Positions 199 to 54,130 of a stretch of DNA of 64,000 nt are shown here, piece by piece. The notes under the pieces are model-generated. The model was not told where the DNA came from, made no database searches, and saw only the letters and a program-made list of their open reading frames with translations. The stretch's first letter is position 1, and every line of letters starts with the position of its first letter. The stretch covers positions 30,683,916 through 30,747,915 of the forward strand of contig NC_052489.1 of assembly GCF_009730915.1 (NCBI RefSeq), read 5' to 3'. The translations under genes and the position numbers were made by a program. The DNA comes from Dioscorea cayenensis subsp. rotundata (lineage: Eukaryota; Streptophyta; Magnoliopsida; Dioscoreales; Dioscoreaceae).

Positions 199-2676
199 AT
201 GGAGGCCGATTCGTGGACCCGATTCTCAGCGAAGCATCAACAATCCGCCGTTTTGCAATCCCGACATGGTGAGTGCTAAAACCTAATGTTCGGTTTATCG
301 GATGATTAGGGCTTCTTGTTGGTGTGCGATTTTATGGGAGGTTTTGTTGATAGATCTGTACCTGGGGCTTGACGAGATCGATGGTGGTGGTGACGATGGG
401 GCGGAGTTCCCTTGCCCCTTTTGCAGCGAGGATTTCGACATCGTGGGTCTCTGCTGCCATATTGATGAGGAACATCCGGTGGAGGCCAATACTGGGGTAA
501 TTACTTCTTGGATATTGCTTTTATAGTCTAAAAATTTTATCTTTATCTTTATTTTCATTGGGGGGAGTTCTAGAATCCATGTACTGTGTCCACTGAGCTT
601 ATTCAATTTAGATCATTCACTGTTTCCCTTCCATTTTTCCTCTTTTGTTTCTGTTTTTATTAAAATGTGATTATTGTATACAATTTCTTTATTTTCCACT
701 TGATCTGGAAGTCCTTGTGTTCACCTATATTAGTTCCTTTTATTTTCTTGGATTACATTTATACGCAGTATGAGGGGTAGTGTATAACCATCATCAGCCC
801 TATTTCCTTTTGGGACTCTGTCACTTATTATTTCCTGTTCTTCTTTGCTTGTATATACTATGAATTCCGAACCTGGAGTACTTTCCTGAACATGTTATTA
901 GCCAAGGATAAGCATACGGTGAATTCATTAATGCAATCATAAGATTATAGCAATTTTGAGATAATCTTTGCTGTTTTTGTTATAGTGTTTTGTGATTTTC
1001 AACTCTGAGAATGAAAAACTGGGAATGTGAAGAATTTTTTTTGGTACCAACATCATTATAATCTATCTGTCATTTGTGATGAGAAATTCGGGCTGTATAT
1101 GGATAATTTTGTGTTATATACCATGTATTCTATTTAATTTAAGTGTAAATCATTTGAGTTTTGATAAAGTAGGCTGTTTGATTCTTGGAAAGTTGGGAAA
1201 GATGAGTTGTGGCCAGTTATTTAAAGGTGAGTTTTTTTTTTTTTTTAATTTTTCCCCTTCTTTTATGCATGTGTATCTATTGAGATTTTTTGGATATTAC
1301 CCGCAATCAGTTATATTAACATGTTTTTGGAACAATCCATTAATTGTTTGCACATGTATCCATTATTCTTTTGGACATGTTCAAAATATTAACTTATTAA
1401 TGCCTTATTCTTGAATTTGGATTTGTCGTATTTTGCAGGATTGCCCACTTTGCATGACTAGGGTTGGTATGGATTTGGTTGGGCACATAACAATGCAGCA
1501 TAGGAGTGTCTTTAAGATATCCTTTCTTAATTCCTTGTCTACTTTTAGGTTTATCTGAAAACTTGGGCATATATGTCCTCTCATGTTGCCATCGTATGCT
1601 ATATTTGTTGATGGAGTTGGAACTTTTGTCCAGTTTCAAACGCTTGTTAATTTTATGGAAATTGTTTTGACAGTAAAGTCTGAATAACACGTAATGCATT
1701 CCTTGACAAGATATTACAGTCAACAAAGGAGGAGAATCCGAAAAGGTTCATCAGGGTCTCATTCTGCAATTCCTTTTTTGAGAAAGGAAATTCGACAAGG
1801 AAATCTACAGCCCCTTTTTGGGGGATCTTCTTTTGCAGCTTCCTCTAATGCGGCACCTAATCCATTGTTGTTGTCATTTATTCTCAATGTTCCTGTTGCT
1901 GATTCAACAAAAGATCTACAAATTGAGTCTTCAGATGAAGGAACTGTGATGGATGAGGGCTCAGTTGAAAAAGTTGTAGAAAGGTACTACAAATGGGCAC
2001 TTTTTAACTTTTGAATCCAGATTTTGTCGTTTTCTGATAATCCATCACTTATATCTATTGACAGCCTCGAGTTTTAATTTCTTAATCACATTGTCTTTTT
2101 TTGAATGAGTGTATCATTTATTAATGGCTAGAAAGCTGGGATTTTATTATTACACAATATATTTAAGTATATAGTAATTACAACCATTATATTTGCCTTG
2201 GAACCAATATGCCATACAAGATCTATAAGAGCTTGAAATCAACCATCACTCTCTATTCATCTTCACTAAATACTGTTCTTTTTTATGATTGTTACCACTC
2301 ATGTTCTTTGCTCAAATGTCTTGCACATACACAAGCTTTTATCCCTATGTATGTGTTGGCTGTACCAGTGCTTTGACATATTTCTAGGCTAATCACTAGC
2401 CTTCTTTAGACAATATACAAATGATCTCTTATGATCCATGCATACTTGGGGTTATTTCATTAGAAACTGATCCGGGCCCTGGATAAAAGGGAGTCCTTCA
2501 CGCACAAATGGAACCTTCGATGCCACTGAATAGGAAATGCATTATTGCTTTAACCCTTTTTTGTTCCTTACAGTGCGGAACCATCTCTCTCTGACAAGGA
2601 TCAGCAGGAGCGAGCTTTTAGGAGTAACTTTGTGCAGGAGCTCGTACTTTCAACAATATTTGAGGACATATTATGA
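199..2676 (+). CDS. DI19: Di19-family drought-induced zinc-finger protein (219 aa)
   Basis: Five coding exons: 199-268, 354-496, 1439-1516, 1718-1983 and 2574-2676, together 660 nt. Two Cys2/His2-like fingers are visible. The first contains FPCPFCSEDFDI and later HIDEEH (exon 2); the second is CPLCMTRVGMDLVGHITMQH (exon 3). A basic stretch QQRRRIRKG follows at the start of exon 4, as in Di19 proteins, and the C-terminus has the family-typical block FVQELVLSTIFEDIL. Length fits the family (about 200-235 aa). Di19 proteins are nuclear, stress-linked transcriptional regulators and substrates of calcium-dependent kinases (family knowledge). Intron 3 is a U12-type AT-AC intron. The 5' UTR carries a long CT repeat at 106-132. 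The gene runs tail to tail with the kinesin on the other strand. The start is the first ATG after the CT-rich leader and opens directly into the conserved MEADSW-type N-terminus. Confidence 0.93.
1517..1717 (+). other. U12-type AT-AC intron in Di19
   Basis: The intron begins ATATCCTTT directly after codon AAG (exon ends 1516). It contains the branch-point sequence TTCCTTGAC at 1699-1707 and ends TTAC at 1717, 11 nt after the branch adenosine (1706). Joining 1516 to 1718 keeps phase 0 and gives SVFK-SQQRRRIRKG. A GT-AG reading of the same junction has no suitable GT. All three signals match the minor-spliceosome consensus. Confidence 0.93.
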
Positions 2677-3388
2677 CTTGGTGCTTTTGATTTATGTCGA
2701 TGGCAGCAGCAGGAACATTGTGACAGGCCTGGAGGCAGCATTCATGTGGCTTTACTATTGCATGGTCCACATGCTCGTATTAGACAGGGATCTGATTTAT
2801 AAAGGCTGTATGTTAGATGTGTTGTTGTTGTGTGTAATAGCATCAAATGTATTGTGTGTGTAAAACCTAATGTATGCAAAGATGCAGAAACTCTTATAAC
2901 AAGGCTTATTTGAAATACATGAACTTCTTATAGCAGGAATGCGCGTGTTTTCTTTAATATGTGTCCATATTCATGGTTATGTCAAATTGTTTTGCATGAA
3001 ATTTGACAGCAAGGTGAAAGGATTTAATTACAGGGTGATACATGCCCAGCAGGAGGGTGATTGATCTGGTTGAGATGATCATCTAAAAATTGGTCATGCT
3101 TTCTGATGAATTTTACAGTCAATCAAACATAAAAATCTGTATTCCTTCCTCTTTCACCTCAAGAGAGTTTCAGGTTCATCCTTCACAATTATCTTTCCCT
3201 TTTTTTTTCTCGTATTTATGGAAAAACAATAGCAGCAAAGAATGGAAGTGGGAATTACAACAAGACTGGTTGAGAAAACACAAGCAACTGGAATTATTGC
3301 CACCCTCAAACCTGCTAAACACAATCCTCAATGCTATCTGTGTCAACTCTGAAACAAACCAAGAAACCTGATAACCATTAGCAACTTC

Positions 3389-6300
3389 TTATTTCCCATT
3401 CCCCGTCTTCCCAATTGGCAGCCTTGAACTCCGGTTTGCATCAAAACTAGGCAGCCTTGAGTTCCGGTTTAGTGATTGAGCAGAACTCTGAAGCTTTCTT
3501 GATGGTGACGGTGATGGAATGTGTGAGCGGTTTGGAGTCCTGGATAGCAAGCAAAGAAACCATCAGCTAATTCAATACTGAAAATGCCGATGATCACAAG
3601 CAATGAATGTTTGTTTCACATCCAACATTAAATTTACAACGAACCATTTGTTTAAGCGTGTTTACCTTATATCTGGGCTATTCATCAACTTCACTTGATG
3701 CTTTTTGATCCTTGTCCCAACACCATTAGGCGTGCCAGTAACCTTCGGAAGGTTGAATTGCCACAGCATATCAGCCTCTGAGGAGTCACTTGTTGCAACA
3801 TCCAGATCATCAGAGTCATCAGTAGCAACATTGTCAAACCGATTTCTCTGCACTTCATATTCATGGTTCTCATTCCTTCCACCAATATTTCTATTGTATT
3901 GCTGTTCAAGAAGGTCTCTTGTATCAGGTTGATATCTCTTGTAGAAGAAGTCAGGTGCATTACCATTATCCCCTTCCCAATCTCTTGGAGAATCATCATC
4001 TGTCCCAGCAGCTCCGTGCTTATGAAAATTTAAACTGGGATCGCTGTCAGCCCAGGGATGAGATCCAGTTGCCAACAGTAGCTGTTGAAGATCAAAGCCT
4101 GTGTTCTTTTGCTTGAGTCCGGAATTTCCCCGCACCTACAAATAGAATTATACACAATTAAATTGACAGTGATAATGTCATTCTTGTTAGTCAGGCAACA
4201 AGTAGAAAATAATTGGTTACCTCAATGTTTCCAACTTCCTCCATTGGCTGCCGGTGATTAATCAGGCAATCCTCTTCATCATGTTGTCGATTTGATAATG
4301 CTCCCCCAGCCTTCCTTGCAAATAGATCAGGGCTGGACATTGTACTCTGGAGGTTTTCGAATTCTCCATCTTTCCGGGCCACTGCTGCCTTCAGACTAGC
4401 TATCTGCAATAACTTAAGATACATATGAGAATGCAACATTCATCAGAAAAAATAACTAGAAAATAAATAGGTGTACCTGCTCTTTAAGTTCTTTGATTTC
4501 TCCGCTTTCTTTGTTAAGCCGGGCAGCACCAAGCTCAACTGTGGCAACCCGTTCAGCAAATTTAAGCGTGCTAAGTGTTTCTCCTATAGCATCAGCTTCA
4601 GGACTTATATGGACAAACATCAATGTCTTTGCTTGCCCACCTAATTTGTATAAAAATAGTATTTATTAGTGTTACCAAAAAATGAAAGGCTGCTCTTGTA
4701 ATTTGCCAAGAATGAAGTCTCACCAAGTGAATCCTGCAGCAGCTGAGTGAGTTTACTATTTCTATAGGGAACATGAGCATTCTTCTGAGCAAGGGCGGCA
4801 ATAACATCTCCTAAAGCTGAAAGTGACTTGTTTATATGTTGTGCTTCCTTCAATCGTTCTCCTTTGGCTTCCGATTTATCAACTCTCTCACTTCCTGCCA
4901 AATCAACCAGGTGCATGCATCCCCGAAGAATAGTTCCCGATGTTATGTCTCTTCCTTGGACATGAATGGTCAAGCAACTGCAGAGTAACTACTCATTAGC
5001 AAAACATTTGATAGAAAAGTTCCACAAAAATTATCTTGAAATTAACAAGAATGATCAATCAAATTCCAACCTGTGAGAGCGACTACTGCGGTCATTCAAG
5101 GCTGTAGAACCAACTGCACGGTTTCTTTGCCCAATGTTCATCAATTCAATAACCTCAGATGTTGATGTAACCGGGATCAAGCTTGCATCAGGTACATTAA
5201 GTCCTTTCTGAGAACTGTTACGGATTTCTAATGTAAGCACATGTAAAGGAAATTCAAGAAATATAAATTCCATGAAGAACAGACGCATGCTTAGCACATT
5301 GGCATAGAGAATTTCCCAATAAAATTAATTTATTCCAGAACTTAGTTTCCGAGATAAGGAAGAGGATGGACATAAAAGGATATCTTTTGTTAATGCCATC
5401 TGTAGCTAGGAGATCTCTCACTTGCTCATTATAGATCTCAATCATCTGAACAGCAATTTCATAATGAAATGCGTCTTTCCTCTGTTCTGAAAGATAAAAT
5501 AGGTCACTTAATGCCCGGTAATTAACACCACGGCCCTGCTCATTTAGAACTTTAGGCCCACTCTGCATCATAGTGAAACTCATAAGTTGACGATAATAAA
5601 ATATGCCGCGGCAATATCAGAGAACCATAAACAACAACTATAGACATAAACAACTCAATTAAACTTCTATGATATTCTCACCATTGTATATGTCTTCCCA
5701 GATCCTGTTTGACCATATGCAAATATACAGACGTTGTAGCCATCAAGAACAGATCGAATGAGAGGCTGTGTATCTGAAAAAACTTCCTCTGCACCATCAA
5801 AGAAAAGTCAGGCTGCTTTCTCCTTGTAGTTGTGGATATTAAATAAAATACATTGCAACAACTGAACTAACCTTGAGATGCAGATGGGCCAAACACTTTG
5901 TTGAAGCTGAAAGATTTACGCCCCTCTTTTCCATACTTAAAAGGAGTGTTGATTGTGATATTTCCATCCTCAACCCTACCAACAGTGCTCATAATACTTG
6001 ACTGACCAGGGAGAAATGGTCTAACTCGACAGTATACCCTTATATTTCCTGTTAGATACAGATATATTGAGTCAGGCTAGGGAATTCCATGGTAAAGATA
6101 TCAAAACTAGAAACATGGAATTACCTTTAAGATCTTGCACTTGATTGTATAGCTTTCTGTTTTCCTCAAGAACTTTGTGGTATCCAGAAGCAGCATGGTA
6201 GAGATACTGCAACTGTTTTCCTGTAAAAAGAGAGTCAGTGATGGTAAGCAGATCATCTTCTGAAAACTTATAACTGCTGAGCAAGATAAACTCTATGTCA

Positions 6301-53839: not shown

Positions 53840-54057
53840 AGATTCAACCTTTCCCTCCATTTATAATTTACAAGATCAGCTGTTTAAGTTTCACGCTAAA
53901 ACCCAATTATATATATATTAAAGATGTAAATGGTTGTTGTACTCATTAACTGTGCACCTTCCCTGATTTCGTTCTCCCGGATTTGTAAAGAGAAGGCGCA
54001 CAATATAGGATTTTACAAAGAACTCAAAAACAAATAATTTAACCAAAAGATGGCTTG

Positions 54058-54130
54058 TGGAGATGCGGGGTATCGATTCCCGTACCTCTCGCATGCTAAG
54101 CGAGCGCTCTACCATCTGAGCTACATCCCC
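54058..54130 (-). tRNA. tRNA-Ala (AGC)
   Basis: The minus strand folds as a 73-nt cloverleaf. The acceptor arm is GGGGATG / CATCTCC with discriminator A, and the D arm is GCTCAGATGGTAGAGC. The anticodon arm CTCGCTTAGCATGCGAG carries anticodon AGC, and the T arm is CGGGA-ATCGATA-CCCCG. A TTTT terminator follows about 10 nt downstream (near 54046). The T-stem has A at position 53 opposite C61, where G53-C61 is nearly universal, so this copy may be weakened. It sits between ERdj3B and the PLIP gene. Confidence 0.93.

Follow-up and report, generated by a model that had tools for sequence, protein, structure and literature searches.

How does the transcript of a Di19 gene lose its third intron, and what becomes of the transcript when that intron stays in? 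The window, by which we mean the whole 64-kb stretch of DNA analysed here, opens with a Di19 gene of five exons on the + strand, whose spliced open reading frame (ORF) encodes 219 amino acids in our reconstruction (Table 1). Pfam bears out the Di19 identity proposed in an earlier note on this DNA: the 219-aa product matches zf-Di19 (PF05605) with 79.1 bits at positions 2-54 of 54 and Di19_C (PF14571) with 92.4 bits, against a cut-off of 29, at positions 3-102 of 102. Exons 2 and 3 encode the two C2H2 fingers of zf-Di19, and these features place the gene in the Di19 family. Introns 1, 2, and 4 have GT-AG ends. Intron 3 starts with ATATCCTTT and ends with TTCCTTGAC-AAGATATTAC. As the earlier note had it, this intron separates the second zinc finger from the basic stretch, a placement on which the ORF, Pfam, and the paralogue comparison agree. 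We put the probability at about 95% that positions 1517-1717 are a constitutive AT-AC intron that would be removed by the minor spliceosome, bringing FK at the end of exon 3 next to SQQRRR at the start of exon 4; in vivo, the minor spliceosome would thus splice position 1516 to position 1718.

Table 1. Positions of the Di19 exons, the U12-type signals, and the paralogous segments discussed in the text.
Feature	Position	Strand	Basis or remark
Di19 coding exon 1	199..268	+	ORF reconstruction; GT donor at 269
Di19 exon 2, first C2H2 zinc finger	354..496	+	ORF reconstruction, Pfam
Di19 exon 3, second C2H2 zinc finger, C-terminal end ...MQHRSVFK	1439..1516	+	ORF reconstruction, Pfam, C2H2 pattern, paralogue comparison
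U12-type AT-AC intron, phase 0, 201 nt	1517..1717	+	Read directly, ORF, simulation, paralogue comparison
U12-type 5' splice site ATATCCTTT	1517..1525	+	Exact; 9-mer common to paralogues C6 and C1398
U12-type branch site TTCCTTGAC, branch A 1706	1699..1707	+	Exact match to TTCCTTRAY
AC 3' splice site (TTAC)	1716..1717	+	Keeps frame, unlike the other 9 acceptors translated
Di19 exon 4, starts with basic stretch SQQRRRIRK, contains most of Di19_C	1718..1983	+	ORF reconstruction, Pfam, paralogue comparison
Di19 exon 5, C-terminal motif FVQELVLSTIFEDIL and stop	2574..2676	+	End calculated from the 219-aa ORF
C7 paralogue	C7:1348500-1357500, 3560-3586 and 1462-3559		VLNSLIGNY after CAG acceptor; exon 3 and U12 donor not detected
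C12 paralogue	C12:897000-905500, 2554-2580 of the reversed locus	reverse	VLNSIIRTY after TAG acceptor

Direct reading of the intron confirms all three U12 signals that had been claimed for it, namely the donor, the branch site, and an AC end past the branch adenosine, with 11 nt from branch A 1706 to the last intron base, C1717. The donor agrees with RTATCCTTT, the branch site agrees with TTCCTTRAY at the right spacing, and the AC end is in frame. The optimal branch-to-acceptor spacing of U12 introns is given as 11-13 nt, and mixed AT-AG pairs are described as disfavoured (PMC3584512; this and the other papers are cited from the portions of their text that were accessible). In donor, branch site, AC end, and 11-nt spacing the intron is like the AT-AC subclass of U12-type introns, and we saw no departure from it. 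By these signals, window 1517-1717 belongs to the U12 AT-AC class.

The reading frame points to the same acceptor. We translated ten acceptors with the donor at 1517, nine AG dinucleotides and AC 1717, the last being the one translated among seven listed AC positions. AC 1717 gives the 219-aa product, and the nine AG acceptors give 97-142 aa. Could the intron instead be an ordinary U2-type GT-AG intron with an internal donor, GT 1537 or GT 1549, and a nearby AG? In a screen that listed GT x AG pairs with products longer than 220 aa, 9 of the 63 pairs tried gave such an ORF, and every one of them used GT 1537 or GT 1549. An intron of this kind would insert ISFLN... residues between the zinc finger and the basic stretch, and its donors, GTCTAC and GTTTAT, fit the U2 consensus poorly. 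Moreover, it would leave the exact U12 donor, the branch site, and their spacing unexplained, and coding similarity in two paralogues, C6 and C1398, stops at the same ATATCCTTT. We therefore consider a U2-type intron very improbable here.

Short motifs also recur by chance, and the stretch might be coding sequence or an ordinary intron in which U12-like motifs happen to occur. We searched both strands of the window for a strict joint pattern (ATATCCTTT, 50-1000 nt, TTCCTTRAY, 4-14 nt, AC) and a relaxed one (RTATCCTT ... TCCTTRAY ... A[CG]), and estimated chance expectation from 150 first-order Markov simulations of 64 kb. The strict pattern occurs once, against 0.033 expected per simulated 64 kb, and the relaxed pattern once, against 0.43 expected. 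The donor motif alone is expected 1.5 times and the branch motif alone 4.8 times in 64 kb, both strands counted. Because single motifs are not rare and even the relaxed combination has an expectation of 0.43, the case rests on the strict combination together with the reading frame and the paralogues. An in-frame stop within the stretch, the low expectation of the strict pattern, and the recurrence of signals and position in two paralogues argue against coincidence, to which we assign a negligible probability.

A second ATATCCTTT 9-mer lies on the - strand of the window, from 5383, where neither the strict nor the relaxed U12 pattern is completed within reach; with 1.5 donor motifs expected, we take it as a chance match and not as a U12 donor. 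A genome-wide search with a donor pattern that could not match the window donor, from which it differs in the last two bases, gave 66 matches against 94 for a reversed-pattern control, and we draw no inference from it. The window also contains a tRNA-Ala (AGC) gene at 54057-54130 on the - strand.

Do other Di19 genes of this genome carry the same intron? The Pfam zf-Di19 model, run over the 584-Mb genome with all 16 candidates scored, gave eight matches representing at least five Di19 loci. With junctions written as slashes, C6 reads TTTAAG/ATATCCTTTT...TTCCTTAAC-10 nt-/ATGCAACGTCGG, its intron ending TTCCTTAAC...TTAC/ATGCAACGT, and C1398 reads TTTAGA/ATATCCTTTC...TTCTTTAAC-10 nt-/CTGCAGAGGCGT, its intron ending TTCTTTAAC...CTAC/CTGCAGAGG. 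In both, the ATATCCTTT 9-mer directly follows the homologous FK/FR codon in phase 0. These paralogues are thus like the window gene in donor 9-mer, phase, codon, and 10-nt branch spacing, but they differ in intron length (220 nt in C6 and 97 nt in C1398), and the C1398 branch site, TTCTTTAAC, is off by one base. All three loci with an exon 3, namely the window gene, C6, and C1398, retain the U12 donor. The branch 9-mer, with at most one mismatch, stands exactly 10 nt before exon 4 in 5/5 Di19 loci found; it matches exactly at three of them (window gene, C6, C7) and with one mismatch at the other two (C12, C1398). The genome also has a U12 snRNA gene on C12, scored at 96.1 bits, above the cut-off (44 scored of 42,750 first-look candidates). 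At the sequence level, then, the AT-AC intron is supported by its signals, its phase, two paralogues, the branch spacing at five loci, an intact product, and the U12 snRNA gene.

Exon 4 of the C6 paralogue (C6:20956500-20964500) raises a separate point. With a trial GT donor after this exon, GAAAGG/GTATG (2771-2773 and 2862), exon 5 is out of frame and the predicted protein has 193 aa without the C-terminal motif. The frame break could reflect an error in the assembly, a donor of non-canonical type, or a genuine change at the C-terminus.

Is a minor intron in a Di19 gene new? Arabidopsis Di19-2, a member of the same gene family, is a published minor-spliceosome substrate: u11-48k plants splice its transcript defectively (PMC4892727), the gene was tracked through development in U11/U12-31K knock-down plants (PMC3422263), and in 31k lines its splicing was 'not significantly altered' (PMC5853960). 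The sensitivity of Di19-2 is therefore not uniform, and the lack of a significant change in 31k lines weakens a rate-limiting role while leaving the U12 class untouched. The comparison is with another species, and the accessible text of these three papers gives neither the position of the Di19-2 intron nor its AT-AC or GT-AG subtype. Since a U12 intron in Di19-2 is in print, the window intron adds one more case of a minor intron already on record; it is of a known kind for the Di19 family and ordinary as a finding. We take an Arabidopsis Di19 protein to read ...FKMHRKRK..., which would suit the same codon as the window intron.

The exon layout of the window gene is likewise common in the family. 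Five exons and four introns are described for 31/36 Di19 genes in one survey (PMC8954995) and for 16/16 in cotton (PMC9686973), and the fingers of soybean Di19 lie in exons 2 and 3, matching the layout found here (PMC4371698). Exon numbers vary in barley (PMC12109150) and in some legumes, maize, and others (PMC11169598), and three sweet potato genes, IbDi19-4, -5, and -6, are four-exon Di19 genes attributed to exon loss (PMC13299491); the accessible text of these three papers does not name the exon concerned.

What would happen to a transcript that kept the intron? In the window gene, retention adds ISFLNSLSTFRFI, 13 intron codons followed by a stop, for a total of 110 aa, and the exon 4/5 junction lies >400 nt beyond the stop. 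In the paralogues, read-through meets a stop within the intron as well, 42 codons in for C6 and 16 for C1398. The earlier note held that poor splicing would yield a protein lacking the nuclear-localisation stretch. Formally this is true, but with a stop after 13 intron codons, decay or nuclear retention would be the likelier outcome. The tails share ISF because the donor itself is read in phase 0; past ISF they differ between paralogues in both residues and length, so that retention does not produce a conserved peptide. With a further junction downstream of the stop, such transcripts would be expected to decay or to be kept in the nucleus. The accessible text of one review-level source presents nuclear trapping of U12-intron transcripts as a model and puts slow U12 splicing forward as rate-limiting (PMC3584512).

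A more elaborate possibility is that retention acts as a cold or drought switch, making a 110-aa two-finger protein that lacks the nuclear-localisation stretch and has a function of its own. The retained form does end just past the second finger, with 13 extra residues, and all three genes stop within the intron. However, the unconserved residues beyond ISF and their differing lengths argue against a selected peptide, and the premature stop precedes another junction, so that decay would be expected. We found no account of Di19 U12 retention under stress in the literature text, figures and supplements aside. We regard such a switch as unlikely and mRNA decay or nuclear retention as likelier than a stable protein without the localisation stretch. 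In our preferred reading, that of a constitutive AT-AC intron, unspliced transcripts would be lost to decay or kept in the nucleus, and the capacity of the minor spliceosome could cap the output of full-length Di19.

Two paralogues, C7 and C12, depart from this arrangement. Exon 3 was not found in either by tblastn with three exon-3 peptides, by the C2H2 pattern in three forward frames, or by the Pfam genome search, and the stretches searched contain no N. Between exons 2 and 4 neither has an exact U12 donor, and C7 has none with at most one mismatch to RTATCCTTT. At the same tolerance, C12 has a donor candidate, ATATCCTTA, at 2371 of the reversed locus; it sits within a TA-rich run and we did not take it as real.

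The other end of the U12 intron appears to have left a trace. Upstream of exon 4, C7 reads CAG/GTTTTAAATTCCTTAATAGGAAACTAC/ATGCAACGC and C12 reads TAG/GTCTTGAATTCCATAATAAGAACCTAC/CTACAACTT, and in each the 27 nt before exon 4 are in phase, encoding VLNSLIGNY in C7 and VLNSIIRTY in C12. The two segments are identical at 22/27 positions without gaps, against 6/27 in the preceding 27 nt; the window gene and C6 agree at 17/27 positions of their true intron ends. With the branch 9-mer and the terminal AC set aside, identity is 12/16 for C7/C12 and 7/16 for window/C6, but window/C7 and window/C12 reach 9/16 and 10/16, so the excess is modest and the sharp upstream drop is the better evidence.

The predicted proteins have 211 aa (C7) and 203 aa (C12), with Di19_C matches of 100.9 and 107.8 bits, and match zf-Di19 at positions 2-33 of 54 only (32/54). 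Over 132 codons of exons 2 and 4, dN is 0.26 and dS 0.88 for C7/C12, and 0.27 and 0.91 for window/C6. The C7/C12 values fit purifying selection and, if the event is shared, an old one. The 27-nt segment itself, with two synonymous and three non-synonymous changes between C7 and C12, is too short for its own selection test. A five-sequence tree did not group C7 with C12, and its supports of 55 and 42 are uninformative. The argument for a common origin is thus the nine codons, together with the absence of exon 3 from both.

We think it fairly probable, on these comparisons, that C7 and C12 lost exon 3 and the U12 donor, that the branch/acceptor 3' end of the U12 intron was exonised within nine codons behind a U2-type AG, and that the two form a one-finger subclade under purifying selection. 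The exonised part of the former intron would be the branch 9-mer and the 10 nt to its TAC end, with exon 2 joined to GTTTTAAATTCC in C7 and to GTCTTGAATTCC in C12. How might this have come about? Exon skipping beside U12 introns is described as rare, the reason given being that U12 and U2 sites are incompatible (PMC3584512, accessible text). An exon flanked by a U2 acceptor and a U12 donor could on that account be dropped only once a U2 acceptor had arisen in the U12 intron, and C7 and C12 look like cases in which an exon was dropped in this way.

The four-exon sweet potato genes offer a parallel, in that exon loss within the Di19 family is what we propose for C7 and C12; unlike these, they come with no mention of a U12 remnant in the accessible text (PMC13299491). 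That study retained proteins with >=70% domain coverage, a filter that C7 and C12, at 32/54 positions, would not have passed, and in soybean the presence of two fingers was checked (PMC4371698). Because of such filters, one-finger forms like C7 and C12 could escape surveys. In open-access text, figures and supplements aside, we came across no description of an exonised U12 remnant in a Di19 gene. That Di19 genes can lose an exon is already in print; the exonised remnant is worth a second look.

Altogether, these results add, with confirmation at the sequence level, another minor intron to a zinc-finger family linked to stress; it lies where the finger part meets the nuclear-localisation part. 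They also correct the expected outcome of its retention, which would be loss of mRNA and not a switch protein. The comparison of C7 and C12 provides a natural test case for the loss of a U12 intron without prior conversion to U2. If our reading of these two genes is true, exonisation of a U12 branch site and acceptor produced a one-finger Di19 subclade.
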